DNA of 64,000 nt from Anadara kagoshimensis. Taxonomy: Eukaryota > Mollusca > Bivalvia > Arcoida > Arcidae. The translations under genes were made by a program, and so were the position numbers. The stretch spans positions 35,275,997 through 35,339,996 of the forward strand of contig CM037871.1 in assembly GCA_021292105.1 (NCBI GenBank), given 5' to 3'. Shown here piece after piece: positions 1 to 62,331 of the stretch. Under the pieces are notes generated by a model. That model was given only the letters and a program-made list of their open reading frames with translations. It did no database searches and was not told the DNA's origin. Position 1 is the first letter of the stretch. Every line of letters starts with the position of its first letter.

Positions 1-539
1 ACAATTAAGGGTTTCCATTATAGAATTAGAAAGAAGTTATGACATTGAATTATTTTTTCTGCAACATGAACGTCATTTGATGAGGGTGTATCCTGAAAGT
101 TTATTCACCTGTCAAGGTCGTTTGTGTGAACTAGACTACATTTACTAAATCCACTTATAAAATTATGTAAGCACTGTTAAGTAGCACTTGATTTAATGTA
201 ACCACAAACTCGAACAGGTGTAATGTAACATACAAGTAGTACATAAATCACTATTGTTATATTTAAGTCTCAAACAATTATTTCTGATGTATAAAGATTC
301 TGGAAGTGTTTGACGTAAAATCACCACACAATGCGAGACACCATTTTAGGCTGTTTCTCTTGGTTACGTTGGCTGTTTCCAAGTACATTCATTTCACTTT
401 TAAAAACTTTTTTTTCTACATGTAGTTCAATACACACCTAAAATGTAACTACATCGAATAATGTGGAAACTAGACACCCCACAAGTCTTATATAGTCTTG
501 TGAATGAGTATGCATATTTGTGGGGCCAATTATCGATGG
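1..539. other. Intron 3 of follistatin (partial), no feature seen
   Basis: This stretch lies downstream of follistatin exon 3 on the minus strand, so it should be intron 3. I see no further follistatin-domain exon, RNA gene or clear repeat in it. Confidence 0.5.
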
Positions 540-775
540 CAGACCACTACGTTAGCTAATCTGTTAGAGTGCTTGTGTAAATGGGAAATCGGAGTTCAAC
601 CCAGGCCAGACCGGGTCTGACCAAGAATTGAAAATAAGTTAATGGCTGTTCTTTCACCAAGCACTCTGCATTTAGAAATGAAAGTCCCAGGGTCATTCGA
701 AATAAAACTTGAAAACTGATGCCCCGTTTCACGGAAGGCGTGGCATGCTTAAGAACCCTTCTTGCACTTTGCCCT
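540..775 (+). repeat. Degenerate tRNA-derived SINE copy
   Basis: The start resembles a tRNA-like head (TTAGCTAATCTGTTAGAGTG as degraded box A, GAGTTCAACCC as degraded box B). It is followed by the family's central segment (CTGTTCTTTC, CAAGCACTC, GAAATGAAAGTC) and by the CGTGGCATGC..AAGAACCC part of the tail. It matches the better copies at 20845-21184 and 12140-12484 in order. It is the most diverged of the long copies. Confidence 0.75.
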
Positions 776-887
776 TAGCGCACTGGATTGGGCGATTTCT
801 CCCACTTTACCATTTACTGCTGACGTTCCGATATAAGCCAAATATTCTTGAATGGGACATGAAACCAAATACAATGCGGTCAATCAT

Positions 888-888
888 C

Positions 889-966
<78 letters not shown>

Positions 967-1056
967 GTCAATCAACCAACTAACACATCAATCAATCAAT
1001 CAATCAGTCAGTCAATCAACCAACTAACAAATCAATCAATCAATCAATCAATTGAA
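888..1056. repeat. (ATCA)n tetranucleotide microsatellite
   Basis: About 16 pure ATCA units are followed by interrupted units (CAGTCAATCAACCAACTAAC). The 135-residue open frame across it (709-1116, INQS repeats) is a by-product of the repeat and the upstream SINE tail, not a gene. Confidence 0.95.
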
Positions 1057-1138
1057 TCAATCATCGATAGCATGCGTTTCACAGAGCTGAAATCAAAATT
1101 TGACTTCATTTTATAAAACTACTTTCATTTATACTTAC

Positions 1139-1357
1139 TTTTACATTTTCCAAAGTAAGCTATTTCAATTTCTCGATTTCTTTTACAGTTATGTCTGAGC
1201 AGACGACAGTAGTTTTTATAATTCCTTCCGTCTGTACCACAGAGATTGCCTTTCAGCCTAACAACTGTTGGACATCGAGGTTTACAAACACATTTTGGTC
1301 TTCCTTTTCTCATCCGACAAGCCTTGTCTTTTGGACATGTTATGGACTCACAGCTAT
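1139..1357 (-). CDS. FST: Follistatin exon 3: first follistatin domain (FOLN + Kazal)
   Basis: Internal exon of 219 bp (73 codons, phase 1-1), encoding one follistatin domain. It starts SCESITCPKDKAC (EGF-like FOLN part), continues RMRKGRPKCVCKPRC and then a Kazal module with the signature LCGTDGRNYKNYC and the closing GKC. Splice acceptor: a pyrimidine-rich tract ending CTCGTAG at 1358; donor: A|GTAAGTAT at 1138. Read past the donor, the frame meets a stop at 1125, but both splice signals and the symmetric phase argue for an internal exon. Known of the family: follistatin secretes into the extracellular space and sequesters activin/myostatin-type ligands. The basic stretch ACRMRKGRPK matches in position the heparin-binding segment of vertebrate follistatin domain 1, which FSTL3 lacks; hence I infer a true follistatin. 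Confidence 0.95.
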
Positions 1358-1467
1358 CTACGAGAAAGAAAAGTCTTTGTACTGTTCATATATGTACTGA
1401 AAGTATTATAAAGATTGTAGGTTGTGCTTAAAATTTAATAACATGCTACATCAGTTTTATCTTCAGT

Positions 1468-1511
1468 ACACTAGACGGCCGTTTCGGAATACAATTCCTC
1501 ATCAGTAGTGT
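1468..1511 (-). ncRNA. Hammerhead ribozyme, intact core (PLE type)
   Basis: On the minus strand the order is stem I ACACTA, core CTGATGA, stem II GGAAT / loop TGT / ATTCC, core GAAA, a very short palindromic stem III (CGGCCG), cleavage triplet GTC, then TAGTGT closing stem I. All conserved hammerhead positions are present and both stems I and II pair perfectly. Predicted cleavage is between 1474 and 1473. Such minimal type-I hammerheads with tiny stem III are established in Penelope-like elements and are thought to work best as dimers. It lies in intron 2 of follistatin, sense strand, 111 nt upstream of exon 3. Confidence 0.9.
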
Positions 1512-1945
1512 TTGCACCAAAATTGTTAAACCAATTTTTTTTTCAAGATGTTGATAAGATACTAAGGGACTAAAGTATTTTTTTTTACCAAAAGCTAAGG
1601 GGTATACCATAGGTTTTGTGGAAGTTTAGATTTTAATCAGCAACAAATTTAGACAATTGTATATTTTTGACAATAATACACAATTTTTGCCTTTCTGAGT
1701 TTGTGATATATTTGACCAAATAGTGTAACTAAAATACTCATTTATGTTTCAGAAAGCCATAAGGTATAGACGACAATATTTAAACTTTATGTCACATCAA
1801 AATCACAATTCCAAAAAGCAAAGTAAAAATTTTGAACTCTTACAAATTAAGTCAAACACGTGAACTTCCTCCACGGAAGTGAGACCGGATGCTCCGGGAG
1901 TGTAAGCACAACCTATCTAGCTAGAAGTCCACAAGCCAAAAAAAT
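1468..1945 (-). mobile_element. Penelope-like element, 3' end fragment
   Basis: Matches other PLE 3' ends in the window: from high to low coordinate, the CTAGCTAGATAGGTTG / CACTTCCGTGGAGG segment, the region RC to TCACAATTCCAAAAAGC, an AT-rich spacer (CTAAGGGGTATACC part) and the terminal hammerhead. No coding part remains, so the copy is 5'-truncated. Confidence 0.8.
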
Positions 1946-2513
1946 GCAAATATTGTAGTTCCAAAGCATCACGCGAACCATTTGTCGCCAAAGCGAGACC
2001 TTGTTTGGGCCTGAAAACAACATGTACCGTTTTTTCTATTTGAACTGTCATATTTAGACCACCAACTACGTCTAGTGTAAAAGCAACAGAAACCCTTTTC
2101 AGATCCGGTACCTACAAATCACCAAGCATCCAGAACTTTGCCCGACATTAAAAAAAAACGATACCCACGCATCGTGAAAAAAAATTCCATTCACAAACGC
2201 AGACATTCTATATTATGCTCTTACCAATACATGTAGGATGTACTTTATGTTCAAACATAGGCATACATATGATAATTTAATAGGACACATATTAACCACA
2301 ATAGATGAAGTATATTATTTGATATTTTTACATCAATACGTGTTGATATGACTGAATGGACTAAAGATCATACATAATGTATTTTATTCTAATTAAAGTA
2401 CATGGTAAATATTTGGAATGTAATACCTTTCAATTAACTACTGATAAAAAATCAACTTTGTATTTATTTAAAAAATAGAAACACGTCTGATGTGATATAA
2501 TCAGTGCCTACAG

Positions 2514-2730
2514 TACAGTACTGTCGAAAGTTTAACACTGGAAAAAACGAAAATAATTTAAAGCTTGGCTGCCGAGGTAACCAAGATATGGATAGCTAGT
2601 GGCAGAAAAGGTGGCGATAGATATATGACAGCTGTACATGTCGACAAGCTGTCAAATAGCTTACAGGAAGTGAAATTGATGTGCTGATGCTGATTTGTTA
2701 GCTAAGTGTTAAACTTTCGACAGGTCTGTA
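2514..2730. mobile_element. Short TIR element (CTGTCGAAAG family), copy 1
   Basis: 217 bp. The left end TACAGTACTGTCGAAAG..TTAACACT and the right end AGTGTTAAACTTTCGACAG..TCTGTA are inverted repeats of about 26 bp. TA dinucleotides at both edges fit a TA-target MITE. No coding capacity. The interior keeps GCTGCCGAGGTAACCAAG, shared with copy 2. Confidence 0.85.
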
Positions 2731-2839
2731 TCGCACCTTGCATGTTTGATTGAATTATATATAAACTTAGATCTGTTTTGACAAAGATGACTTTTTAGAG
2801 AAAGAAGGTCTGTCTTAGACTGTGAGAAGTAAACATTAT

Positions 2840-3075
2840 GAAAGGGGGTACAAATTCGAGACATTGTAGATCAAAGGAAAGGGGGGGGGGGTTACAAATC
2901 TGAGACATTGTAGATCAAAGAAAAGTTATAATACTAACTTTAGCTTATTTATTATATAAATAAAGTTTACTCTCAAATTAATGATTCAAAAATCACAACA
3001 ATAGTTGAAATATTTATTATCTAAATAAAATTTAAGCACAAATTAATGACTAAAGAATCACAAATTGTCTCCAAT
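2840..3075. repeat. Two short tandem duplications
   Basis: A ~45-bp unit containing GAGACATTGTAGATCAAAG occurs at about 2858 and 2903, separated by a run of G. A ~63-bp unit containing TTTATTAT..AAATAAA..CAAATTAATGA occurs at about 2950 and 3013. Both are diverged two-copy duplications in intron 2. Confidence 0.7.
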
Positions 3076-3249
3076 GTTGTTGCAAAAAAACAACATAAAA
3101 TGCAGTTATATTGTCACAGATATATTTTTTATCTTTAGAAGATCAAACGGCATTACAAATCATTTTCTTTGTGGAGATTTCGTAACAGTTGACACATTTT
3201 GTACCTTATAAGCTCGTAGTATTCAATAGCTTAGCCTTGACAAATACCG

Positions 3250-3458
3250 TACATACATGTCGAAAGTTTTACACTGAGCTAACGAAAAGGTGTCGAAGCT
3301 TTGCTGCCGAGCCACCGAAATATGGATAGCTAGTGTTTATAAAGCTACCGAAAGAGATATCAAGCAAATGCCGGCAGTCTGACGAAATATTAGGTGAGAT
3401 AAGTTGTCGATTTGACACTTATTCGTTATCCTGGTGTTGAACTTTCGACAGGGCTGTA
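3250..3458. mobile_element. Short TIR element (CTGTCGAAAG family), copy 2
   Basis: 209 bp with left end TACATACATGTCGAAAG and right end GTGTTGAACTTTCGACAGGG..CTGTA. The interior (GCTGCCGAGCCACCGAAATA, GATAGCTAGTG) aligns with copy 1. Confidence 0.85.
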
Positions 3459-3745
3459 CTAAGACTATTTTGGTGCAATTTGTTTATTATGTAAAATCAC
3501 ATATTATGTCTGTGTGTGAGAATAATGATATTTTTATCCTTCAAGTACAGTAATTATCATGCGTCTTCAATAGGTGAACGATTTAAGTAAACTATCAAAT
3601 TGGTAAAATTGTTTAAAATTATACATTTGAAATTTCAAAAAGAATTTTAATCTAAATATTTGAAATACTACATATTTGAAAAAAGTACATGTATGTATAA
3701 TTGAAATAAATGTTTTATTTGACATCCTGTCTGAATAATTAAAGT

Positions 3746-3748
3746 TAT

Positions 3749-3826
<78 letters not shown>
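3746..3826. repeat. (TA)n microsatellite
   Basis: About 80 bp of nearly pure alternating TA, broken once by AATA. Confidence 0.95.
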
Positions 3827-3828
<2 letters not shown>

Positions 3829-3926
3829 GCAAAGTATTTCTAAGTTTGGTTCGGTAATCTCCCTACTGTCTGTCCGTTATATAGGTGATAATTTTTAATT
3901 CGCCTAGTAATATAATCTACATACAG

Positions 3927-4127
3927 TACAGACCTGTCGAAAGTTTGACGGTAAACTAACCAACCAACAGCTAATCTTGTCTCCTCGTTGGCCATATCTT
4001 GGAAGCTTTTTGGCAGCCATTATCTACCAGTTTTTCAGGTCACTAGCTGTCCATATCTTGACCACTCGGTAGCCGAACTTCGACTCCTTTTTCGTTAGTT
4101 CAGTGTTAAACTTTCGACAGGCCTGTA
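3927..4127. mobile_element. Short TIR element (CTGTCGAAAG family), copy 3
   Basis: 201 bp, ends TACAGACCTGTCGAAAG and CTTTCGACAGGCCTGTA. Its interior holds single copies of the two segments that are amplified in the neighbouring copy: a CAGCTAATC..TCCTCGTTGG..CATATCTTGG part and a GGCAGCCATTATC..GGTCACTAGCTG part. This makes it a good proxy for the unexpanded state. Confidence 0.88.
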
Positions 4128-4203
4128 CTGTACATGTACGTATGTAAACTAGAGTACAGACTTGTCGAAAGTTTAACTCTGACCAAACGAATTAGTGCCG
4201 AAT

Positions 4204-4738
4204 CGGCAGCTCATCTCGGTCCCTCGTTAGCGACATCTCGACAGATTTTCGGCAGCTCATCTCGGTCCCTCGTTAGCGACATCTTGACAGATTTTCGGCA
4301 GCTCATCTCGGTCCCTCGTTAGCGACATCTTGACAGATTTTCGGCAGCTCATCTCGGTCCCTCGTTAGCGACATCTTGACAGATTTTCGGCAGCTCATCT
4401 CGGTCCCTCGTTAGCGACATCTTGACAGATTTTTGGCAGCTCATCTCGGTCCCTCGTTAGCGACATCTTGAAAGATTTTCGGCAGCTCATCTCGGTCCCT
4501 CGTTAGCGACATCTCGACAGATTTTCGGCAGCTCATCTCGGTCCCTCGTTAGCGACATCTTGACAGATTTTCGGCAGCTCATCTCGGTCCCTCGTTAGCG
4601 ACATCTTGACAGATTTTCGGCAGCTCATCTCGGTCCCTCGTTAGCGACATCTCGACAGATTTTCGCGACATCTTGACAGATTTTCGGCAGCTCATCTCGG
4701 TCCCTCGTTAGCGACATCTTGACAGATTTTCGGCAGCT
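4204..4738. repeat. 46-bp minisatellite inside TIR element
   Basis: About 11.5 copies of a 46-bp unit beginning CGGCAGCTCATCTCGG and containing CCCTCGTTAGCGACATC. Units are almost identical (scattered C/T changes such as ATCTC/ATCTT); one unit near 4664 is truncated. Low divergence implies recent amplification or homogenisation. Confidence 0.95.
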
Positions 4739-6140
4739 ATTATCAATCTCTCGGCAGCTTTAAGGCCACTAGCTATTATCAATCTCTCGGCATCTTTAAG
4801 GCCACTAGCTATTATCAATCTCTCGGCAGCTTTAAGGCCACTAGCTATTATCAATCTCTCGGCAGCTTTCGGCCACTAGCTATTATCAATCTCTCGGCAT
4901 CTTTAAGGCCACTAGCTATTATCAATCTCTCGGCAGCTTTAAGGCCACTAGCTATTATCAATCTCTCGGCAGCTTTAATGCCACTAGCTATTATCAATCT
5001 CTCGACAGCTTTAAGGCCACTAGCTATTATCAATCTCTCGGCAGCTTTAAGGCCACTAGCTATTATCAATCTCTCGGCAGCTTTAAGGCCACTAGCTATT
5101 ATCAATCTCTCGACAGCTTTAAGGCCACTAGCTATTATCAATCTCTCGGCAGCTTTAAGGCCACTAGCTATTATCAATCTCTCGACAGCTTTAAGGCCAC
5201 TAGCTATTATCAATCTCTCGGCAGCTTTAAGGCCACTAGCTATTATCAATCTCTCGGCAGCTTTAAGGCCACTAGCTATTATCAATCTCTCGACAGCTTT
5301 AAGGCCACTAGCTATTATCAATCTCTCGGTAGCTTTAAGGCCACTAGCTATTATCAATCTCTCGACAGCTTTAAGGCCACTAGCTATTATCAATCTCTCG
5401 GCAGCTTTAAGGCCACTAGCTATTATCAATCTCTCGACAGCTTTAAGGCCACTAGCTATTATCAATCTCTCGGCAGCTTTCGGCCACTATCTATTATCAA
5501 TCTCTCGGCATCTTTAGGGCCACTAGCTATTATCAATCTCTCGGCATCTTTAAGTCCACTAGCTATTATCAATCTCTCGACAGCTTTAAGGCCACTAGCT
5601 ATTATCAATCTCTCGGCAGCTTTAAGGCCACTAGCTATTATCAATCTCTCGGCAACTTTAAGGCCACTAGCTATTATCAATCTCTCGACAGCTTTAAGGC
5701 CACTAGCTATTATCAATCTCTCGGCAGCTTTAAGGCCACTAGCTATTATCAATCTCTCGGCAACTTTAAGGCCACTAGCTATTATCAATCTCTCGGCAAC
5801 TTTAAGGCCACTAGCTATTATCAATCTCTCGGCAACTTTAAGGCCACTAGCTATTATCAATCTCTCGGCAGCTTTAAGGCCACTAGCTATTATCAATCTC
5901 TCGGCAGCTTTAAGGCCACTAGCTATTATCAATCTCTTGGCAGCTTTAAAGCCATTAGCTATTATCAATCTCTCGGCAGCTTTAAGGCCACTAGCTATTA
6001 TCAATCTCTCGACAGTTTTCGGCCACTAGCTATTATCAATCTCTCGACAGCTTTAAGGCCACTAGCTATTATCAATCTCTCGGCAGCTTTAAGGCCACTA
6101 ACTATTATCAATCTCTCGGCATCTTTAAGGCCACTAGCTA
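4733..6140. repeat. 36-bp minisatellite inside TIR element
   Basis: About 39 copies of a 36-bp unit (CGGCAGCTTTAAGGCCAC followed by TAGCTATTATCAATCTCT). Variants (CGACAG, CGGCATC, CGGCAAC, TTTCGG) are interspersed, some in higher-order blocks. It adjoins the 46-bp array directly. There are no unique spacers, so it is not CRISPR-like. Confidence 0.95.
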
Positions 6141-6482
6141 GTCATATCTCGGTCGCCGAGCTTAGACTCTTTTCGTCAGCTTACTGTTAAACTTTCGACA
6201 GGTCTGTACTTTAATTAATATGATCTAGTGAAGACAGTTTTACAGACAATTTATTATGGTATTTAAAAAGAAAAATGGTATGTAACAATACAAATTTGTA
6301 TTCTAGTTTAGGTCAGTCAACTTTACATATAGTACATGCGAATGCCATACTAGTGCATTTTTAGGGCAGGTAAGGTGAATACCGAAACCAGGTTCAAATA
6401 CGTTTACCTTCAAACTCATATAGTCATATAAGTATATAGAAAAAGTAGACACAAACTTACACAACCCATAAATTTATGTATA

Positions 6483-6630
6483 CAGTCCAACCTGCCTTAA
6501 AGGCAACCGCTATATAATGACCACCTGTTTATAAAGGCCAGTAGAATTGTATCCCAATTGTTCTTTATTCATATTATTTGAACCTGTATATAAAGGCCAC
6601 CTGTCCATAAAGGCCACTTTCACTGGTTCC
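6483..6630 (+). mobile_element. CAGTCCAACCTG MITE, 3'-truncated copy
   Basis: Begins TA-CAGTCCAACCTGCCTTAAAG and shares the interior GTAGAATTGTATCCCAATTG and TATAAAGGCCACCTG with the complete copy at 17492-17670. The right terminus is missing; it continues into CGACGTTAAACAATAAGC (6670-6710), which looks like the tail of another repeat. Confidence 0.8.
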
Positions 6631-6860
6631 ATCGGATCACACCATGTCTCGTCGCAGATATCTAAAAAATTGCTGATGCGACGTTAAACAATAAGCAATC
6701 TCGACCCACAAACATTTCCCATAGAAATAGCAATGCTTCTCTACGAATAAATACAAAACCCCTTCCTACGTACTTTTAATGCAACAATTACATCAGCAAT
6801 GGATCATTCATTGTAGACATCGCGTCTCAAACAACTTCCTTACTGCCCATGTGTAATACG

Positions 6861-7084
6861 GCACAGATCTTTAAAAAAGTTTAACATTGAACGAAATGGA
6901 AAGGAATCACGGCTCAACTACCGAATGTCCAAAATTTGAATAACTATTGTGACCAAAAAAGATACAGGGATACAGACAATAGTTGCTAAAAACCAGACAA
7001 GATATACTTAACGAGGTGCTGACATGAGCTGTCGACTCGGCACTAGTTCGTTAATTTAGTGCTAAACTCGTCAATTGACAGATC
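6861..7084. mobile_element. Short TIR element (CTGTCGAAAG family), degenerate copy 5
   Basis: Left remnant GCACAGATC..AAGTTTAACATTGAACG, right remnant GTTCGTTAATTTAGTGCTAAAC..CAATTGACAGATC. The interior (GAGCTGTCGACTCGGCACTA) fits the family. Heavily mutated. Confidence 0.7.
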
Positions 7085-7334
7085 GCCGACCACGCCCACA
7101 ATGTTCCGACAAAAGCCCGACATGTTGAATTACAAACAAATAGAATGAAAACTTGACCCGAATTGTGTCTTTTCATGATGTCACTAACACTAATACGTCA
7201 TTAGTTGCCGTGACGCTGCTTTGGTACCATGATGGCGGCCAATGTCGGAGCATAAAAGGCGTGGCTGGCGATACGTCAATTCGATAACTTGTACTGTAAC
7301 AACCCCCTACAGCTCAATTTAAAATTAAACTTAC

Positions 7335-7532
7335 TATGGCACTGATTACACTCCGGTGCCCCTCCGACTAACGCCTCCCAATAAAATAATTTTCCTGATG
7401 ATGGCCGATCGTGTGGTGACCATGACACTGACGGTATATCCGATATTGAACAACATTCTTCTTTGCTCATATTAAGACTGAGAAAGTTTCTACACAGATC
7501 TTCCTTTGACTTCTGGAACCAGCAAATACCAC
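7335..7532 (-). CDS. FST: Follistatin exon 2: N-terminal six-cysteine domain
   Basis: 198 bp (66 codons, phase 1-1). The six cysteines are GIC-W, DLC, the adjacent pair in SKEECC, PEC and QC, the pattern of the vertebrate follistatin N-terminal domain. Also kept are the Trp after the first Cys (CWFQK), the Trp in SVSW, the LF-W segment (KLFYWEALVGG) and the GGAP-C-C end. In vertebrate follistatin this domain packs against the type I receptor site of activin. Acceptor: TCTATTATCTAG at 7533; donor CATA|GTAAGTTT at 7334. Joined to exon 3 it reads CNQCH-N-SCESITC, matching the vertebrate domain join. The frame past the donor, down to 7276, is intron. Confidence 0.96.
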
Positions 7533-7559: not shown

Positions 7560-9540
7560 TTTAATATGTAAATTTGATAGTGTATCTTCTGAAAAAGAAG
7601 TAAAAAGTAAAAAGTTAGACGTTCTGTCTATTTCACATTCGAAATGAAGACTGATGTTGTCTATGTCTAGTTAATGTCCAGATTAGAAAATTGTCAATGC
7701 ATTGGAACCTTATACGTCCAGGGAGACAATATCCTGTCTTAGAAAGGCATACGATATGTCAATCTAATATTTGACCTTGAACCTAGACCTACACATCTGA
7801 ACATGCGTCGCATTGTCTCTTTTTGTATACATTTGTTCCAAGTTTGATCAAAATCTATTCAAAGTTTCATTTCGCTGTTTTAAGACCGTGCCAGTGTATA
7901 GCTGCCATGTAAGTAAGCCGGAAGTAGCTGTAATTTACAAAAGTTTTTATTCGTTTGCAAAGAAAATATCCAGGAATGCTTCATATAATAATTTAAATAA
8001 CTTTCTCTATTTGTATTGGATTTTGCTTTTGATGTATGTACATTTGTGATTACTTCTTTCTTTCCCTATACTAATGGCTTTATTGCAACTTTGATTCAAG
8101 ACTGATACAAATCAGCGAAATTTAGGTATTTGCGCGGTTTACTTTAGTCGAATCATGTAATACAATTTTTCTTGATGGTAAATGAGGTCTGTAATTCCTG
8201 GGTCCCTCTTGGTCCATGTCATTCACATACAGATTATATAAAGTGACGCTGGCTTTCAACTGCGACCAAGATTAGTCTACACAATATCATTTGCTCTTGA
8301 CATAATCGGCTCAAGGTCAACGTCAAGGTCAGTGTTTGGAACAAAACCGTTAGCCTTTAATTTGCCAACTTTAATTTTTACATCACACGGAAATTTTATT
8401 ACATATAACGCGAAACCTTGCTTTATTACATTACAATGTGTTATAACATTACACGTCGACGAAAATTATCACACTACAAGGTAGGTATTACATTACTTGC
8501 CATATATAACATAACCCGGCATAACATGGACCCAGTATAAGAAAATTAAAATGTGTTTATGTTGTCGTTTTGTCAAAGCTATTTTACACACTTAAATGGT
8601 CAATAAGTTCTCTTAAAAAGAATACAAAACGTGTTATAATGACACATTGACACTTCACTTATCCCAACATTATTTTAAGGAATTAAAACTTGTTTTTCTT
8701 ACATGTTTTCCTTATAAAACTCCTAATTTATCGCCAAACCCCATTTGAAATGAAAACAAATGACCGAATAATTGTGGCAATGAATTGAGGTTTATTTAAA
8801 AAAAAAACTACACGATATTGTATGTAAAAACTCATCTACCCGTAATTTTGTGTGTAAAAATCATCAAAGTTATTAACATGTCTTTATAAAATTATAAGAT
8901 AAGTTGATAAAGTCAACATGTGAAGTTCGAGGTGGTTTAATTATCAAGTTTGATGGCAATCTAACTTTGCATGTATTTAGATAATTTTATCATAATAAAA
9001 ATCTTTAAAAAACTAAACAGACACAAAGATGAAGAATCAATAAAGAATTAACCTAGATCAAAGATTACATTAACATATATCTTTGAGCAATTTACGATGC
9101 ACCCCCGTGACACTATCAGACGACGGTAATAAACACAGGGGGTACATCTGTTGCATTGTTTAGAATACCAATTAGTGTAATAGTTATGCATTAAATATGT
9201 GCATATCATCGTCACAACGATTAAACTATGTGTGATAATTAGTAACCTAATATTAAAACGCATTATCATTGTTGATACACTATTCTGGGGTGGGTAATAT
9301 ATTAACATTCAAATATATCGGTAATGTAGAACGGTGGACTAGGTTAGTATCTTTGAACTGAGATACATAACACACACCAAGTTGTCAAGGTTACACAAAG
9401 TTTTCATGGCAATATTACGCTAGTGAAATATTCCTACATCATAAAGATTCACCTTAATCTATCAGTAAAAAGATAAGACAAAGGCATAATAAATCAAGAT
9501 AATGCATATAAAGCCGCCAATATATAACAAACCAATAAAC
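7560..9540. other. AT-rich intronic stretch, no feature seen
   Basis: No repeat, RNA or exon that I can support. Short open frames (7813-8049, 9048-9308 minus) have no recognisable domain or splice context. Confidence 0.4.
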
Positions 9541-9544
9541 TAAG

Positions 9545-10115
9545 ATAATACAAACCAATATATAAAGGTACCACAGGCCAATACATCAATGTATCACAGA
9601 TCAAGTCAAGATATCACACAGCAATACATCAATGTATCACAGTCCAATACATCAAGGTACCACAGACCAATACATCAATGTATCACAGATCAAGTCAAGA
9701 TATCACACAGCAATACATCAATGTATCACAGTCCAATACATCAAGGTACCACAGACCAATACATCAATGTATTACAGATCAAGATATCGCACAGCGATAT
9801 GTCAAAATATCACATACCAATACATCAATGAATCACAAGCCAATACACAAAGATATCACAGACCAATGAACAAACCTATCACAGACCAATACATCAAGGT
9901 ATCACAGACCAATATACAAAGATATCACAGACCAATGCACCAACGTATCACAAACAAAGTCATCAATGTATCACAAACCAAGTTATTAATGTATCGCAAA
10001 CTAATACATGAAAGTATCAAAGATCAATACACCAATGCATCACAAAACATCAATGTACCACAGGTCAATACATAAAAGTATCAGAGACCAATACATCAAT
10101 GTTTTACAAACCAAT
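9545..10115. repeat. 23-bp minisatellite, diverged block (AATACATCAATGTATCACAG)
   Basis: Roughly 24 imperfect copies of a 23-bp unit around AATACATCAATGTATCACAG. Within 9590-9780 a higher-order repeat of four units is duplicated. Related to the block at 10385-11345, from which it is separated by 270 bp of non-repeated sequence. Open frames here are repeat artefacts. Confidence 0.9.
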
Positions 10116-10384
10116 ACACCCAGAACCAAAATTAATTAATTTATAACAATCATCTCATTATGGTTTTACAAACTAAGTCAGCATTAAGTTACGGAAACCA
10201 CATCGATCTGCAAAATTTTACAAACTGCCATAATACCACAGTCAAAGTAGCTATAGTACAACAATCCAAGGGTCAAGGTTGCACAAACCACGTTGTCACT
10301 GCAAACATTCACAAAACAAGTACTGAAGATAAACTACAATAGAACAAGTCGTCAAAAATATAAACCGAAGTTTCGTAAAGGAAG

Positions 10385-11345
10385 TAGTGAATACAAAGTA
10401 TCACAAACCAAATCATCAAGATATCACAAACCAAAACCAAATCAACAAGGTATCACAAACCAAATAATCAAGGTATCACAGACCAAATAATCAAGGTATC
10501 ACAGACCAAATCATCAAGGTATCACAAACCATAACCAAATAATCAAGGTATCACAAACCAAATCATCAAGGTATCACAAACCAAAACCAAATCATCAAGG
10601 TATCACAGACCAAATCATCAAGGTATCACAAACCAAACCATCAAGGTATCACAGACCAAATCATTAAGATATCACAGACCAAATAATCAAGGTATCACAG
10701 ACCAAATCATCAAGGTATCACAAACCAAATCATCAAGGTATCACAGACCAAATCAGCAAGGTATCACAAACCAAATCAAACCAAATCATCAAGGTATCAC
10801 AGATCAAATCATCAAGGTATCACAAACCACACCATCAAGGTATCACAGACCAAATCATCAAGGTATCACAAACCAAATCAGCAAGGTATCACAAACCAAA
10901 TCATCAAGGTATCACAAACCAAATCATCAAGGTATCACAGACCAAATCATTAAGATATCACAAACCAAATCATCAAGGTATCACAAACCAAATCAGCAAG
11001 GTATCACAAACCAAATCAGCAAGGTATCACAAACCAATCAGCAAAGTATCACAAACCAAATCATCAAGGTATCACAAACCAAATCAGCAAGGTATCACAA
11101 ACCAAATCAGCAAGGTATCACAAACGAAATCATCAAGGTATCACAAACCAAATCAGCAAGGTATCACAGACCAAATCATCAAGGTATCACAAACCAAATT
11201 ATCAAATTATCACAAACCAAATCATCAAAGTATCACAAACCAAATCATCAAGGTATCACAGACCAAATCATCAAGGTATCACAAACCAAATCATCAAGGT
11301 ATCACAAACCAAATCATCAAGATATCACAAACCAAATCTTCAGGG
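10385..11345. repeat. 23-bp minisatellite, main block (AAGGTATCACAAACC..)
   Basis: About 40 copies of a 23-bp unit, AAGGTATCACAAACC followed by AAATCATC. A few units are extended by insertions of AAACC or similar, or shortened (CCAATCAGC). CAGACC/CAAACC and ATCATC/ATCAGC variants alternate. Strong purine/pyrimidine strand asymmetry: very few T outside GTATC and ATC. Confidence 0.95.
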
Positions 11346-12106
11346 CATAAGTCAAGTTCTCAATACAAAGAGCAGCAAAAGAGTATCCAAGGCAAAAGAA
11401 ACCAAGTCAGCAGCAAAATATTACAAACCAAGAACCAAGTCATTAGGGTATCACAAGCCAAGTCCTAAATGCAAAGAACAGCAAAAAAAAGTCAAACAAA
11501 TAACAAATACGACATTACTAACCAAATAATCTTGTCTTGTAAAAATCGTTTAGTACACTTCCACTTGAAAATGTATGGCGCCGATAGGTTTATAAAAATA
11601 AAAAAAACTATATTTTCCGTTTTAAAAACTAGCTCTTAGATCTGGAAAATCAAGCGACAGAAGTGAAAATTGCTGGCTGGATTTTATATCTAGCCAATGA
11701 TTAAGCTATTTGTTCGACTATAATGTTAACACTTAATTTTTATTTTATCGTGTGTGATTTTTATTACTTCTGTTCTTTTGATTCTGTTTGTAACTTTCAA
11801 TCTTCACACACTAAAAATCAAATAAAACACATCACATCGCTTATTTTATAGTTGTTTCAATCCGAAAGAGACTGTTTTTGTTTGAGTAATTTTTAAAATT
11901 CAAACATTTTGAATCACTTAAATAAAATTCAGAAATTGTAACTTTACAAAGGGCTGGAGTGTAATTAGCGTTCTGATGTTCTGGCTGTGACGTTAATATT
12001 ATATTAAAGAGTTGTGTTCCAATTACGACAATGACTCAAATTAAAAATGAGAGAAAAAATGATAAAGTGAAATTGCTGGCAGTCATCTGTAGTACAGTAG
12101 ACAGTA
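11346..12106. other. AT-rich intronic stretch, no feature seen
   Basis: Decayed remnants of the 23-bp unit persist to about 11500. Beyond that I see nothing I can name. Confidence 0.4.
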
Positions 12107-12669
12107 TACAGGTCAGTCGAAAGTTTAACACTGAATTAATGAGTTGAGTTGAGTAATGAAATTTAACGTCCAAGTCAAAAATATATCACTTATATCGAGA
12201 CGTCGTGAGCTGTAGGCGAAGATGCAGAAATTTTGCCTGTGCGTTGCGCTGATGACATTATAAAGCAGGGTTCTTAATCGTGGCACGCCTACCGTGACAC
12301 AGGACCTCGTTTATTTTAAGTTCCCACCCGAAAGAACCGTGACTTTCATTTCGTAATGCCGAGTGCTTGACGAAAGAACAGTCATTACCCACTTTCAAGT
12401 CTTGGGTCAGACCCGGTCGCGGTTCGAACCCACGACCTCCGACTGACGGAGCCAGCACTCTACAAACTGAGCTACCGCAGTGGTCACATTGAGTTAACGG
12501 ATAAGTGCCGAATTGGGAGCTCATCTCGGCCCCTATATATCTCAGCAGATGCTATCTATCCCTCGGTAGCGTTTCATAACCAGTTACTAGCTGTCCATAT
12601 CTAGAACACTTAAAAGTTCGAGCCTTAACTCGTTTTTTCTCACAGTGTTAAACTTTCGGCAAGCCTGTA
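12107..12669. mobile_element. Short TIR element copy 6, interrupted by a SINE
   Basis: Left end TACAGGTCAGTCGAAAG..TTAACACTGAATTAA; right end ACAGTGTTAAACTTTCGGC..AGCCTGTA. Without the SINE at 12140-12484 the element would be about 215 bp, as its relatives. The interior GTGCCGAATTGGGAGCTCATC and CGGTAGCG matches copy 4's flanks. Confidence 0.88.
12140..12484 (-). repeat. tRNA-derived SINE, near full length, nested
   Basis: 345 bp. On the minus strand: tRNA-like head ACCACTGCGGTAGCTCAG with box A and box B (GGTTCGAACC), central segment (CAAGTCTTGG, GACTGTTCTTTCGTCAAGCA, GAAATGAAAGTCACGG), tail CTCGATATAAGTGATATA ending in ACTCAACTCAACTC. It sits inside a TIR element; flanks CACTGAATTAA and CACATTGAGTTAA look like a decayed target duplication. 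The tRNA part is RNA polymerase III promoter, not a working tRNA (no acceptor-stem pairing). The open frame 12258-12524 is incidental. Confidence 0.92.
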
Positions 12670-20844: not shown

Positions 20845-21184
20845 CGAGTTGAGTAATGGTGTTTAACGTCCCAGTCAAGAATATTTCACTTATAACAAGA
20901 CACCGCCAGCTATAGGCGAAGGTGCAGATATTTTGCCTATACGTTGCGTTGATGGCATTATACAGCAGGGTTCATTAGCGTGCCAAGCCCACCGTGACAC
21001 TGGACCTCGTCTATTTTAAGTTCCCATCCGAAAGAATCGTGACTTTCATTTCGTAATGCCGAGTGCTTGACGAAAGAACAGTCACTACCTACTTTCAAGT
21101 CTTGGGTCAGACGTGGTCGGGGATCGAACCCACGACCTCCCACTTACGAGGCGAGCACTCTACCAACTGAGCTTCCGCAGTGGT
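20845..21184 (-). repeat. tRNA-derived SINE, full length
   Basis: 340 bp, the best-preserved copy. Minus strand: ACCACTGCGGAAGCTCAG, box A AGCTCAGTTGGTAGAGTG, box B GTTCGATCCCC, central segment GACTGTTCTTTCGTCAAGCA and GTCACGATTCTTTCGGATGG, tail CTGCTGTATAATGCCATCAA, CGCCAGCTATAG region and final ACTCAACTCG. Confidence 0.94.
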
Positions 21185-21645: not shown

Positions 21646-23560
21646 TTGACATTGGTCTAAATCATTCTTTGAGAAATTATTCTATTTACAGATATGTAAT
21701 AAAAATTAATTCTTAAAATTAAAAAGCAGATCATAAAGTATTATATATATATCAGATTCACAGCTGATTCTGTTAACATGTACAATAATATAATTTTTAT
21801 TGAAACATTGCGCATTGTGTGCACGTCATTTAGCTCATGTGTACGTTTATGTTCTATAATGACATATGTTTCCGACATTAAGGAGGATAAAAATGGTTAT
21901 TTTTACGTATTTTGACAGCTTTTAAATTTTTGCGTTTAACATAACATATAAAAACTGTCCAACTTACAGGTGGTTTGAGTGTTCAATTCAGACATTATTC
22001 GAGTTTTGATATGTTTCTACTGTCGCTACAGGACGTTAACATCGACGTTGTGGTGGAATTATTACACCTCCCTTACAACAATACAAACCAGCATACACTA
22101 AAAAGCTTTAAACTTCAACAAACAGACTTTTAGTATTTCAATAAACTGTGATCTATTGTTGCTTGACACTCTATTTTTGAATATATTGTATATGTGTAAT
22201 TCAGAGATCCAGTAATTAAAATATTACAGACTTTATCAGTAACTTAATTACGTTTTCTGTTTTATACAGTCAGTCTTAGTAAGGAAAGGTTAAATTTTGA
22301 ATATAACTTTTAGCAATTTTATAAAAAAAAATCTACTTCTTTTTTAAGCTTTTACAGGTGACCGTATGAAATACTAAAACATCTAATAAACCCGAAAACA
22401 GTCTTTTTAAAATTTTTGCTAGTTTTATGCATCCGGTCCAAAACATTTTCATTTCTTGCTCTTATATCAGTCATTGACGGTCGGTCGATAATCGCATTTT
22501 ACTTGAATGCTGTACGATCAAAAACAAACATACCGATCCATGTTCAAATCACAATCCCACCTAAAGCAGAAACAAAAATATAAAATAAAAACCTTGAAAC
22601 TCGCAAAATTATGTAATTATTTAAGTTTAAAAAATATGCTAAACCCTTGTATATTAATACAGTAAGTACAAATCTGTCTCATCAATACATTTACGAAGCT
22701 AAGCCAATATGAGATGAACTTGGCTAAAACCGAGCCAATATGAGAAGTGCAACGGTTCTGAAGAACTTCAGCTAAACAATAAAAAGTAGGGGAAATTACA
22801 AATTAAAATTATTTCCTGGTTACAAAGTACATGTCTGGTTATTTGATGTGGAAAAGTTGCTTTTGCGCGAAAAATAGCATGATTATATGAAAATTAATTA
22901 ATCAACACAAAATTAATTAATCCAAACGTTTTAACTCGCTCGTTGCACTTAATTTGTTAGCCTTTCTATGACGTCAATCTTCGCCCACGTCCCTCGGTCA
23001 GCAAAAATGCAACAAATGTCAAGTGTGCTTCAATTATTTATACTATATGTTTGGAATATTAAGTAAAAAAATAATCTTTATTAATCAGTATTTCATATTG
23101 TAACATAGGATCAATATGAAATTAATAATAAAATACTTCCAAAAAAAAAATCATTCAGATTTTGACCAAATGTTATGAATTAATTTCTAAAAGACTGCAT
23201 ATATCTTGAATCAATAATCCAACTTTTTTATACATGTATATAAGTGTATCATAAGCCAATGATGTGTTTTTTATTAACTATTTATTTTGTGTTCATTATC
23301 TGATGTTCTATTTGTAGATATGATATATAAATAGAAACAAGAAATATAAATAAATAGAACGAGCAAATAAAACAAAGATAACAGTATAAAGATATCACTG
23401 ATGATAAAACTCATGTCGGCCAACTGTACACGGATACTTCCATGACTTATTTGTATTGTTAGATTTGTTTAAAAAAAACAAGGTCAAGATAACAAAGCTA
23501 GAAAAATAACACACATACTAGTTCATGTCCAATTACATATTATACCAGTGTTAATTTTAC
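21646..23560. other. AT-rich intronic stretch with one small PLE fragment
   Basis: 22530-22610 (minus) carries the AAAAACAAACATACCGATCC..AAATCACAATCCC PLE segment. A GCCAATATGAGA phrase is repeated at 22703 and 22735. Otherwise nothing supported. Confidence 0.5.
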
Positions 23561-23606
23561 AGCACTAGACGGCCGTTTCGGAATACAATTCCTCATCAGT
23601 AGTGCT
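23561..23606 (-). ncRNA. Hammerhead ribozyme, intact core (PLE type)
   Basis: Minus strand: stem I AGCACTA / TAGTGCT (7 bp, perfect), CTGATGA, stem II GGAAT / TGT / ATTCC, GAAA, palindromic CGGCCG, GTC. All core residues conserved. Predicted cleavage between 23568 and 23567. Sense orientation in follistatin intron 1. Confidence 0.9.
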
Positions 23607-23780
23607 TGAACCATAATTAAGAAACCAATATTTGTATCAAGATGTTGGAGATACCATCAAGACCACAATTTAGCTAAGGCAATACTTTGCATGATTGAGT
23701 ATACCTTAGTTTTTGAAGAATTTCAAGTTTTAACTAGCAGCAAATTTAGACAATAAATCCAAAAGGAAAACCCTTGAAAT
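23561..23780 (-). mobile_element. Penelope-like element, 3' end fragment
   Basis: Terminal hammerhead plus the spacer shared with other copies (RC of CAAGATGTTGGAGATACC, TAGCTAAGGCAATACTTTGC, GAGTATACCTTAGTTTTTGA). The copy stops before the UTR and coding segments. Confidence 0.8.
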
Positions 23781-27915: not shown

Positions 27916-28369
27916 AAAACCTGAATAAAAAGTGATTGGAAAAACATTATACTAGCCTTAAATACAGAGTATCCTAATATGTCTTTAGGCAGGTTGAATT
28001 GTTAAGATTTTGTCTGCAACAGAAACCTTTTAAAAATTCAAATTTGAGAACAAAAAGATGTAATATCTGAAATATAAAATTCAAATCCTGACAAACGACT
28101 TGGTATTTCAGGCTTTGCATATTGATCAGAATCGTCAACTGTTACAAATTATATTTGAAAACAGTGCAAAGTGCAAAGATAGAATGAAAAGCACGATTGA
28201 CCAAACCTATTTAACTTGTATGTAACAGAGACCAAAACAGAAGGCTTGGAATCAAGCATGCGAGTTTTTTTTTAAATATGATATTTCAGTTTTACCGCTT
28301 TGACCGAAGTCCGTCTAATACGCTAGTTTTATAATTATACAATTACATATTATACAAGTTTAACTTTAC

Positions 28370-29145
28370 AGCACTAGGCGGCCGTTTCGGAATACAATTT
28401 CTCATCAGTAGTGCTTCGACCAAGACGTTTTTCCCCAGACATTGAAAAGATGCCTAAAGGACCAAATTATACCCCACCAAATCTAGCTAAGGGGATATTT
28501 TGCATGAGGGAGTACACCCCAGCTTCAGAGGAATTTCAAATTTAAATAGAAACAAATCAAAAACAAACATACTATGTCCGAATCACAATCCAGAAGCAAA
28601 GTAAAAACTTTGGAACTGACAAGTTGGGTTAGACACGTGAACTTCCACCAGGAAAGTGAGGCCGGGTGCTCCGGAAGGGTAAGCACCTCCTGTTTATCTA
28701 GTTACACCCGCCACGTGTGTAATTAAAATTGTGTGGAAGGAACATAGAACTATGAGACGTCAAATATATCCAGGACAATCCTGAACACAGAGACATCAAA
28801 CTTATCAACAATACTCTGATGACGGCCATAAAACGTTTTGAGGGCCTTGATAAGCCTAGGCTTGCAATATCCCCGAGTCAACAATTTATTTGCAAGCAGC
28901 CTACGTCGTTGTACAAAGTCCCCGTAGTGGGAACAAGCTCTACCATAGCGTATTAATTGGGAAACAAATGCACCGTAAGCAGGAGAAGCAGATATATTGC
29001 TGCATAAAAAAGGAAAGTTGACAATAGAAAAATTGAAGTCATCACGTTTGTCATAAAGTTTCAAATGTAGCCTTTCGTGCGCGTCATAATTCAGGTATAA
29101 GTCTAAATATGAAGCAGAACTTGAGGAATCAGTCGTGTCTTTTAT
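28370..29145 (-). mobile_element. Penelope-like element: end of RT ORF, 3' UTR and hammerhead
   Basis: The longest PLE copy. From 5' to 3' on the minus strand: C-terminal coding part (see 28750-29143), the CACACGTGGCGGGTG and GAGCACCCGGCCTCACTTTC UTR segment, the spacer with GGTGTACTCCCTCATGC, and a terminal hammerhead (28370-28415). The ribozyme's cleavage triplet is GCC instead of GTC and one stem II pair is lost, so it should be dead. 5'-truncated near 29145. Confidence 0.85.
28750..29143 (-). pseudogene. PLE reverse transcriptase ORF, C-terminal fragment
   Basis: Open frame of about 130 codons with no ATG of its own. It starts KDTTDSSSSASYLDLYL and continues with KLYDKRDDFNFSIVNFPFL, SPAYGAFVSQLIRYGRACSH and RGYCKPRLIKALKTFYGRH, ending at a stop 3' of DIFDVS. 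YLDL, YDKRDDFNF, YG-F-SQLIRY and FYGRH are recurrent in the RT C-terminus of Penelope-like elements in invertebrates (recognised from family knowledge; no search done). The catalytic palm is missing because of 5' truncation. The linked hammerhead 3' end supports the PLE assignment. Confidence 0.8.
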
Positions 29146-50581: not shown

Positions 50582-51857
50582 TCAATTTGTCAATAACTCT
50601 GTTCTATGGTTCCAAGCAGCATGAATATATTTTGATAATTTTGATAATAAACATTTAGAATTAGAACTAAGTAAAGTATTAAATTTATATAACGATGGCC
50701 AGCTATTAAAATATTTTGGTAAAAATCGTAAACGTAAATGACGATATGCAGGACACACTAGTAAAAAGTGGAACTCATCCTCAATCATTTTCATATTGCA
50801 TACTGTACATAACCTACAATGTCTTGGTACACTCGTATATCTACCCGTTTCAATATTAAGCTTTAAATTACCACATCTGAATTTTGCTAGCATGTTAACA
50901 AACTTTTGGTTTATATATATATTTAGGTCCAAATAACATTCATATTGAAAATATTGTTGAAACTGTTTATATAATACAAGCTTTGAAGAACTTTCAATTG
51001 AATTATACCATTGTTGTATGAACTGGTCATATAACCTCTGCTGTAATAGAGCAATGTTAATACAAGATACATCATGACAATACCAATATTGTGGAAAACC
51101 TAAATTAATTAAAATATCCCTAATCTTTGATGCCCAGTTGACTTTACCACTGTTAGCATCAGACACCAACAATAAATAAACATTGTGCATAATACTATGA
51201 GGATTTTCGAGTAGTTTTACCCAATATTTAAGTATTCTTTCTTTGCGTTTGATGCAAAGTGGAAAACGACCTAATTCGCCATACAAAACATCATTTGGTG
51301 CAGATTTATTTACATTTAATATATACCTGTAAAATTTATTTTGTACATATTCAACTTCTGTAGCCTTGTGAAACCCCCATATTTCTGAACCATAGAGTAA
51401 AACAGGAACAACCATAGAATCAAACAGATCACATTTCTGTTCTGCCGGTAGGTAATTGTTTCGGATAACACTTAATAAATTATATAAGGCCTTAGAACCT
51501 TGGTCTGCAAGCTTTTTCTGAGTATGGTTAAATTTACCATTTCTGTGTAGTAAAACACCAAGGTAAACAACGTAAGAGTCAACCTGTTCAATAACAACAT
51601 TACCATATTTACAGTCACAGTTACATCGCCGCCAACCATTCTGAAACACAACGATCTTAGTTTTATCGATATTTACTTCAATGTTCCATTTCAAACAGTA
51701 AGAGTGAAGCTTATCCAATAAGGTCTGTAACATTTCTGGAGATTTAGCAAACAAAACAGTATCGTCCGCAAACAGAAGTAAGTATAGTAGATAGCCGCCT
51801 ACATCAATTATATTGGCACCGGTAGTATGTAAGTCCGAAACTAAGTCATTTATAAAA
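50582..51857 (-). pseudogene. LINE ORF2, part 3: RT active site to C-terminus
   Basis: Frame continues from INDLVSDLHTTG through the catalytic LLLFADDTVLFAKSPEML (RT motif with FADD) and thumb (KWNIEVNIDKTKIVVF) to a C-terminal segment with CRLCTVC..EDEFHFLLVCPAY, the Cys/His motif common in such LINEs. Ends at a stop near 50582. It is offset by one base from part 2 at a T run (TTTTTATAA, about 51852); one more T would restore the frame. Confidence 0.88.
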
Positions 51858-53223
51858 ATGTAAATAACAAGGGTGACAAAGGTTCACCTTGTTTAACGCC
51901 GACATAGTTATTGAAATATTCAGAATAGTTCCCATTAGACTTAATACACATGCTCACCCGACTATACACAGATTGGACCATGTCGATCATTTTTGAGCTA
52001 CAACCACTTCTGAATAATTTATACCACAACATCCTCCTGTCGACTGTGTCGAATGCACGCTTAAAGTCAACAAATGCACAGAAAAGTTTTTCTTTCTTCT
52101 GTAAGGTGGGAGTAATAAGTCCATGGAGTGTGAAGATTGCATCCACAGTTGACTTTCCGTGTCGGAATCCAAACTGGTTATCACACAATTTCTCATTATT
52201 TTCTGCCCATGACATGAGACGTTCATTTAGAAGTGCTGTAAAAATTTTGGAGAATACGCTCACAAGTGTTATAGGTCTGTAATTATTTGGGTCTCTCAGT
52301 TTGCCTTTTTTAGGAACTGGGACAATAATACCAGAAGCCCACGAATCCGGAAATTCACAATTGTCGAACATATAATTAAAGAGTTTACATAAAACATGAC
52401 ACAGTAATTCCGCCACTGAAGTGAACATTTCACTAGTCAAATTATCAAAACCAGAACTTTTACCGCGCTTCAACTTTTTGATGATTCCTAAAACTTCTTT
52501 TTCTGTAAATGGAGAATCTAGTTCGTCAATAAACGCACTTTGCGCATCCAGATTACTGTTATCAATCAATCTTTGTGTATTATGATTCAGTTCTGCCAAA
52601 TCAGAACCTAACACAGTTTTGAACATGTTGTAAAACTCTTCCAAGTTTACCGGAAGGTTACTTTTGGATTTGGGTTTTAATGATTTCCAAAATTTCTTAG
52701 GGTCAGATTTAGAAAGTTCCTTTAGTTCTTGTCCTTTTTTTACCCTATACCTGAATTTTGCCTTTCGTTTCACTTTATTATACATATTGCGCGCATTCAC
52801 AAAAGTCCGCCTATTGTTATCATTCGGATGTCTGTTATACTCATTCCGTGCCGAGTTAAATAAACGTTTATGGATCTTACATTGAGTATCAAACCAATAA
52901 TTTTGATGAGTTATTTTACCATTCGATGGAAAGTTTATATAGGTTCTGCCATTTACTTGAAATGATGAAGTATATATAACATCCGTAATGTAAGAAACAC
53001 AAGAGTTTATATCTATATCAGTGTCAGTTCCAAGTCTATCTACCATGTTATGTAACTCTGGAATTAACGGTCTAATAACATCTATATATTGTCCCTCTTT
53101 CTCTACATCCCACTGTATAATTCGGTGTGAAGTGATCACATCATCACTGTTTAAATTACCTGTAAATATACTAAAACATAAAGCAGCATGATCTGAAAAT
53201 TCATTTAAGGACCTTAAAATCAA
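51850..53223 (-). pseudogene. LINE ORF2, part 2: reverse transcriptase
   Basis: About 450 codons with RT blocks in order: GKSSGFDNLTSEMF, PNNYRPITLVSVFSKIF, NQFGFRHGKSTVDAIF, CAFVDFKRAFDTVDR and VGVKQGEPLSPLLFTF. The preceding linker (NEFSDHAALCFSIFTG) is the end of the endonuclease (SDHAAL motif, catalytic Asp-His). The upstream join is broken by a one-base shift near 53223, the downstream join at about 51852. Confidence 0.9.
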
Positions 53224-53986
53224 CAATATTATCAAAATGTTTAGCAAAAGTTAACAAATAGTCAACAACACTTGATCCATTATCATTACTAAATGTGAAA
53301 ATACCATTTTTATCACCTTGTATACGCCCATTTACCACATTTAATTAAACCAGTTGCTTTACATATATTCAAAATTTTATGTCCAAAAACATTAACAGTT
53401 TTATCACAAGATTTTCTTTCTGGTAAATCAACATTGTCGATACTTGAGATATTACGTAAAAACCTGTCCAACTTATCATCATCAATACAATCATTTTCCT
53501 GACCAATTCTGCCATTCATATCACCTGTAATAAAACACTTTCCTTTGGATTCATATTCATTCACCATATCAAAAATCTCTTCAAAAAAATCAATATCTAC
53601 AATTTTGTAAAATTCAGATTTAACATGCGGTATGTAAACAAGACAAACATACATATCTTCATTTAAATTAAAAAAGTTTTGTCAAATTTTAGCAAAATAA
53701 TACCATGTAATATCCTTTTTTCAACACTTATACCATTCAATAAATGAGATTTGCAATATACTGCTAGACCACCTTCATTACGCCTACCAACATTATTTTT
53801 TCTATTTACAAAATCAACTTGAACAAAATTGTCTAAAGTAACTTTTTCTTCTCTTTTCAACCATGTCTCTGAAAACAGAAGCACATCATAATCCTTAATA
53901 AAATTGACAAAGTCCGCATCCGATGATTTACTCCGAAGTCCGTGAACATTCCATGAGAGAAATTTAATGTATCCTCCGCGTGACCC
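53224..53986 (-). pseudogene. LINE ORF2, part 1: endonuclease
   Basis: Endonuclease/exonuclease/phosphatase-type domain: FLSWNVHGLRSKSSDADFV (53974-), DVLLFSETWLKREE (catalytic Glu), GGLAVYCKS, VYIPHVKSEFY, CFITGDMNGRIG (Asp-x-Asn) and GSSVVDYLLTF. Frameshifts occur at a T6 run (about 53675), at AAGGTGAT (about 53312) and near 53223. There is no ATG before the conserved start: the frame follows directly, without shift, on the TAG that ends ORF1. Confidence 0.88.
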
Positions 53987-62300: not shown

Positions 62301-62331
62301 CTGTCCACAAAGAAGTGAGAATGACCAAAAT

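Follow-up and report, generated by a model that had tools for sequence, protein, structure and literature searches.

Minimal type I hammerhead ribozymes are reportedly carried by Penelope-like retroelements (PLEs), as described by Cervera and De la Pena in 2014 and by Lunse in 2017. According to a published passage, minimal PLE hammerheads may cleave themselves as dimers, and a study of the PLE ribozyme of Anolis describes cutting only in the presence of its protein and an absence of RNA-seq ends at its cut site. In Mytilus, non-LTR retrozymes with units of 350-390 bp are present in ~5,000 copies (Cervera and De la Pena 2020, PMC7229834). Hammerheads located in introns of protein genes have been reported as well, namely in RECK, CTCL and DTNB of amniotes and in the mucin genes (SmPoMuc) of Schistosoma, with proposed roles in transcript processing. 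Minimal PLE hammerheads, mussel retrozymes and intronic hammerheads are all already published. Literature on the follistatin locus or on hammerheads of ark shells was not among the matches listed in our search, whose coverage leaves most subscription journals outside.

In this article, we describe a hammerhead in intron 2 of the follistatin gene of Anadara kagoshimensis, found in a stretch of 64,000 nucleotides that we refer to as the window (Table 1). We consider it a relic of a Penelope-like retroelement that is largely inert as a monomer, rather than a co-opted switch, with a probability of roughly 0.8. The proposed explanation is that the ~490-bp 5'-truncated 3' end of a PLE, bearing a minimal hammerhead of the dimer type, inserted in the sense orientation into the intron. 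Within the element, neighbouring tandem copies may join via the palindrome ACGGCCGU into a double hammerhead, which would cut multimeric element RNA into units. The follistatin intron holds a single copy, so that a stem III of 2 bp would be too weak, the core would be expected to misfold and cleavage would probably be too slow to compete with splicing, which should proceed normally.

Table 1. Features of the hammerhead, its retroelement family and the host gene, in window positions.
Feature	Position	Strand	Basis
Type I hammerhead motif	1468..1511	-	Sequence and structure check
Palindrome ACGGCCGU; stem III of 2 bp in the monomer, 8 bp in the dimer	1475..1482	-	Cofold minimum is a double hammerhead; lost in duplicate L038
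5'-truncated retroelement 3' end: post-ORF block 1924-1797, spacer, hammerhead unit 1657-1434	1434..1924	-	blastn to other window copies; nearest-copy search
Second perfect-core copy, outside intron 2	23526..23733	-	nhmmer, alignment
Copy downstream of the RT ORF; cleavage triplet GUC -> GCC	28328..28545	-	Hammerhead at 28408
C-terminal piece of reverse transcriptase (RT) ORF, ~340 nt upstream of the 28408 hammerhead	28750..29145	-	75% identity to Tegillarca granosa protein P0001
Follistatin exon 3 (FS1 domain)	1139..1357	-	Kazal_2 E 5e-10; PDB follistatin FS1 60 bits; donor GTAAGT
Follistatin exon 2 (N-terminal domain)	7335..7532	-	tblastn E 5e-10; splice-site letters
Follistatin intron 2, 5,977 nt, phase 1	1358..7334	-	Exons by homology; splice-site letters read directly

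Read on the minus strand from 1511 to 1468 and checked for both sequence and structure, the motif is ACACTA CTGATGA GGAAT TGT ATTCC GAA AC GGCC GT C TAGTGT. Stem I (ACACUA/UAGUGU) has 6 bp and stem II (GGAAU/AUUCC) has 5 bp and the loop UGU, while stem III consists of just 2 bp (A-U and C-G) with the loop GGCC. The core formed by CUGAUGA and GAAA is complete, with every conserved letter in place, and C17 (H17) falls at 1474, which puts the predicted cut between 1474 and 1473. Judged from its letters, the motif is a hammerhead ribozyme of type I, with the core CUGAUGA...GAAA...NUH, stems I and II, and the open end in stem I. What the first-pass annotation had claimed for the motif itself is confirmed, i.e., the conserved letters CTGATGA, GAAA and GTC at 1468-1511, the pairing of stems I and II, and a cut leaving a 5' end at 1473. 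The hammerhead was reported neither by an Rfam search of the window at the gathering cut-off nor by an Rfam scan of positions 1000-2500 at E<=10, possibly because stem III is very short; a search with RF00163 across the genome gave 0 matches and equally 0 in its 14 control genomes, which makes that search uninformative. The stability of the 44-mer RNA is ordinary (z -0.88, with 33 of 200 shuffles equally good). Since the folding energy is unremarkable, the evidence for the hammerhead is the motif together with its family.

The host gene is recognised by homology. When exon 3 is compared with PDB follistatin 2p6a, the phmmer domain scores are 60 bits for FS1, 30 for FS2 and 18 for FS3. The whole-chain score of agrin is higher (123 bits), yet it is the sum of nine domains, each of which scores at most 25 bits, and by these scores the exon at 1357-1139 is most like follistatin FS1. 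FS2- and FS3-like exons are found in the adjoining 10 kb, just outside the window (L036, 8153-7932 and 7054-6833, minus strand). The follistatin introns are of phase 1 by splice sites read in the sequence. With exon 2 at 7532-7335 and exon 3 starting at 1357, intron 2 spans 7334-1358, and the hammerhead is therefore both intronic and in the sense orientation. There are 110 nt between the motif and exon 3, and 116 nt of intron between the cut site and the exon; the sense location in intron 2 and the short distance to exon 3, both claimed in the first-pass annotation, hold. A homology search with nhmmer found no second hammerhead copy within intron 2. As no exon 1 was found, intron 1 might extend to further same-strand copies, for example the intact 23599 copy. 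Intron 2 also contains repeated ends with ...CCTGTCGAAAGTTTAACACTG... in both orientations (2508-2747, 3244-3475, 3921-4209 and 6172-6225), which look like a family of small inverted-repeat elements, as well as 46-nt and 36-nt minisatellites between 4113 and 6040.

The insertion that carries the hammerhead includes the same block that blastn finds directly after the RT ORF piece at 28750-29145, a piece that has no Pfam match of its own. Ten family copies, each comprising the motif and its flanks, were detected by nhmmer on both strands of the 64-kb window, and a perfect 42-nt core is present in two of them, 1505 (the intronic copy) and 23599. The origin from the 3' end of a PLE, which had been proposed from the letters of the window, agrees with this connection of the repeat to an RT-bearing, Penelope-like element. 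A 13-bp inverted repeat lies near both edges of the insertion, at 1915-1903 (TAGGTTGTGCTTA) and 1430-1418 (TAAGCACAACCTA), and both are present in the duplicate locus described below. The window contains pieces of other mobile elements, including the RT of another, probably LINE, element at 51853-53250 on the minus strand (RVT_1 E 2.5e-22) and gag-like and aspartyl protease pieces of an LTR-type element at 61210-62931 on the plus strand. A weak tRNA match at 21115-21176 on the minus strand (30.1 bits against a gathering threshold of 29) overlaps a stretch repeated within the window (12146-12445 / 20846-21145) and is for this reason probably a SINE.

The pattern CTGATGA-N6..20-CGAAACGGCCGTC occurs at 4,707 places (2,428 + 2,279) in the genome of 1.115 Gb, and the reversed-pattern control at 0. 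A chance match was considered for the motif at 1468-1511 and ruled out on these counts and on the ten related copies in the window. Assuming that introns make up 20-40% of the genome, 470-940 intact cores would probably be found in the sense orientation in introns by chance. The family was compared using the first 30 of the 4,707 places, which are consequently loci chosen by the core pattern. Of these 30 anchors, 11 are accompanied within their 3-kb locus by a further intact core in the same orientation, the remaining 19 being without one. Locus L031 (4195-7395) contains an RT ORF piece, its post-ORF block and then five cores spaced 338-339 nt apart, and opposite-strand hammerheads adjoin RT pieces in L032 and L033. 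The tandem or inverted pseudo-LTR repeats with hammerheads that characterise Penelope-like elements are found in the L031 array, L032 and L033. The retrozyme organisation, in which short units of 170-400 nt with type I hammerheads are repeated in tandem, is found in the family (L031) but not in the solitary follistatin copy.

The family resembles the Mytilus retrozymes in abundance and unit size (~5,000 copies versus 4,707 cores here; 350-390 versus ~340-nt units in L031). It differs from them in that an RT ORF piece precedes the array of L031 and in that the follistatin copy lies outside any array. The likeness to the minimal PLE hammerheads extends to the type I topology, the tiny stem III, the link to an RT element, the tandem copies and the predicted action as dimers; the differences are that the follistatin copy is a lone 3' fragment within an intron of a host gene and that the RT relatives examined here end without a C-terminal GIY-YIG and have a CxC block before the RT. 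Longer RT relatives carry RVT_1 weakly, above the Pfam cut-off in one of the 13 scanned (P0263), and a PDB profile search with the RT family returned no RT. GIY-YIG was not found by Pfam in seven RT relatives (543-654 aa), the N-termini of which may be incomplete. In all four long relatives examined (P0263, P0333, P0294 and P0239) the CxC block, CTC or CSC, precedes the RT and the C-terminal GIY-YIG is absent. The CxC block is a mark of Naiad PLEs, which to our knowledge are described as being without canonical hammerheads, and the RT family of these four proteins may be Naiad-like. Should this assignment hold, the presence of a hammerhead in a Naiad would merit attention in its own right. The membership of the element among PLEs is suggested by the motif, the architecture and general background rather than by a tree.

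A duplicate of the follistatin locus at C15:36107544-36108082 (L038, L067), on the same strand of the same contig at a distance of 830 kb, shares both exon 3 and the insertion. It is similar to the window over positions 1-3465 (the reach of L038), then from 7466 to ~10,100, and on into the minisatellite beyond. The duplicate may be a paralogue that arose by segmental duplication or an unpurged second haplotype. Mismatches amount to 77 of 3,315 positions overall (2.3%), 10 of 490 in the insertion and 1 of 44 in the hammerhead (2.3%), and the exon 3 stretch has a single mismatch in 222 positions, which is silent and leaves the protein unchanged. The comparison of 1/44 with 77/3,315 and with 1/222 in the exon indicates that the hammerhead has diverged as fast as the region as a whole, in contrast to the conserved exon. 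Retention of the intronic hammerhead beyond the neutral rate is thus not apparent between the two loci, one change in 44 nt being a small number. The sole change in the hammerhead of the duplicate is in loop III and breaks the palindrome ACGGCCGU. A large minisatellite with a period of 23 nt, open in several frames, occupies 9495-11530 of the window.

Energy models of the 44-mer prefer an inactive fold in which the core letters CUG are paired with the stem III letters CGG. Compared with it, the active monomer fold is less favourable by 4.5 kcal/mol at 37 C and by 6.8 kcal/mol at 20 C, with predicted probabilities of 1.5e-4 and 3e-6, respectively (0.0003-0.015%); a control for the method, given a longer stem III, adopts the hammerhead fold with P 0.24-0.27. 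When native flanks are added, the probability of stem III is <=0.01 throughout 12 context and temperature settings and that of stem II is 0.5-0.97. With upstream RNA alone, stems I and II are both predicted to form well (~0.5-0.97), which speaks for some monomer activity, but stem I no longer forms once the full stretch to exon 3 is included. For two copies, the cofold minimum corresponds exactly to the double hammerhead, in which ACGGCCGU forms an 8-bp stem III, with an association energy of ~-9 kcal/mol (-9.3 at 37 C) and an affinity of ~0.3 micromolar predicted from ensemble energies. The intronic copy is, as modelled, a minimal hammerhead of the PLE type in having a very short stem III and a dimer that forms a double hammerhead. 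With the change found in the duplicate, the predicted association at 37 C is -4.8 kcal/mol instead of -9.3, and the double hammerhead disappears from the dimer minimum. Because energy models leave out the tertiary and non-canonical pairing by which hammerheads are stabilised, monomer activity may be underestimated. Covariation was assessed in 62 copies (30 core-pattern loci, 29 nearest copies and 3 of the 10 window copies, namely 1505, 23599 and 28408), from which those with >8 core mismatches were dropped; this removed L046 and left 61 copies with 37 distinct sequences. The covariation is weak: one pair occurs as G-C, G-U and A-U (29 of 37 paired) plus five A-C, and changes in the remaining pairs mostly affect one partner.

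With all catalytic letters there and stems I and II able to pair, the monomer could be active co-transcriptionally, cutting intron 2 at 1474/1473 and lowering follistatin mRNA by competing with splicing. The HDV-like ribozyme reported in an intron of Cpeb3 (PMC10919898) offers a precedent for an intronic ribozyme tuned to splicing, and roles have been proposed for the hammerheads in amniote and Schistosoma introns. Both the Cpeb3 ribozyme and the follistatin hammerhead are self-cleaving motifs in an intron with possible splicing competition, but the former belongs to another ribozyme class, is shown to be active and has 9.9 kb to the next exon, as opposed to 116 nt. With so short a distance from cut to exon, the ribozyme probably has only a brief interval in which to act before the 3' splice site is transcribed, and in the models the 2-bp stem III does not form and is outcompeted by the inactive fold. 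Taking into account also that no partner was found in intron 2 and that the motif of the duplicate changed at the surrounding rate and lost the palindrome, we regard cutting by the monomer as unlikely, and the cutting of the pre-mRNA considered in the first-pass annotation is not favoured by these predictions.

Reports on related ribozymes bear on the inert-relic reading in both directions. It is weakened by the mussel retrozyme hammerheads that still cut at ~0.1 per min without the usual loop contacts (PMC7229834), by the statement that most invertebrate type I hammerheads cut as monomers, and by earlier PLE hammerhead self-cleavage at 3-25 mM Mg, mentioned in the methods of the Anolis paper. 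It is strengthened by the possible self-cleavage of minimal PLE hammerheads as dimers, by the protein-dependent Anolis ribozyme and by earlier work, summarised in the Cpeb3 paper (PMC10919898), in which splicing was unaffected by slow intronic ribozymes.

The same dimer models raise the alternative that the intronic copy is cut conditionally in trans, i.e., that abundant element RNA acting through the palindrome, or an element protein, activates it, so that follistatin splicing drops only during element activity. The predicted dimer affinity of ~0.3 micromolar would allow such pairing, mussel retrozyme circles reach high levels (PMC7229834), and the PLE hammerhead of Anolis is reported to be assisted by a protein. 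However, pairing on a nascent transcript has to outpace splicing and the palindrome is lost in the duplicate locus, and we consider cutting in trans very unlikely.

The divergence of the family provides a further view of selection. The intronic copy differs from the majority of the 30 fetched copies at 0 of 42 core positions and at 30 of 126 positions of the upstream flank (Fisher p 1e-4), and its identity to the intact copy 23599 is 42/44 in the core and 108/162 in the flanks (p 4e-5). Scaled by the other nine window copies, the probability of such core retention is ~0.011, or ~0.11 for at least one of ten copies. The intronic core thus appears to be kept better than plain decay predicts, which mildly favours selection. 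A perfect 42-nt core beside an upstream flank 24% diverged from the family majority is what would be expected if the insertion had been co-opted and kept by selection as a conserved regulator of follistatin splicing or decay. Perfect cores are, however, also found in L010, L012, L016 and L018 despite upstream flanks diverged by 27-46%, these loci being chosen by the core pattern, and among the 28 next-nearest relatives by DNA similarity (after the locus and its duplicate), a set not chosen by core alone, three have a perfect core and nine have all catalytic letters. The perfect cores of these diverged copies and relatives point to selection in the lineage of the element. Considering also that divergence in the hammerhead of the duplicate matches that of its surroundings, and that the exon 3 stretch of that locus has a single, silent difference, co-option for follistatin regulation seems extremely unlikely. 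The intronic hammerheads of amniotes and SmPoMuc genes, to which the follistatin copy is similar in being a hammerhead within the intron of a protein gene, are described as conserved across species or within the gene family, with G12 kept in one SmPoMuc group only; the follistatin copy is unlike them in that the one available comparison, with the duplicate, revealed change at the surrounding rate.

The relic reading also places the locus within what is already published. The novelty claimed for it in the first-pass annotation was overstated, given the intronic hammerheads of amniotes and Schistosoma mucin genes (their orientation is taken here to be sense), the known PLE class and the 4,707 cores of this genome. 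What is new is one further location in a host gene and the number of copies in the genome of one bivalve. It is highly doubtful that the intronic copy is a conditional hammerhead, silent alone and completed in trans by element RNA via ACGGCCGU or by an element protein; if this were true, a retroelement burst would cut follistatin pre-mRNA and thereby modulate a TGF-beta antagonist, a response that would be shared by the hundreds of other introns in which sense copies lie. In a genome with 4,707 cores, of which by our estimate hundreds are probably sense-intronic, the family could show whether host introns purge self-cutting motifs, and such purging would be readable, given gene annotation, from the counts of sense versus antisense copies in introns.
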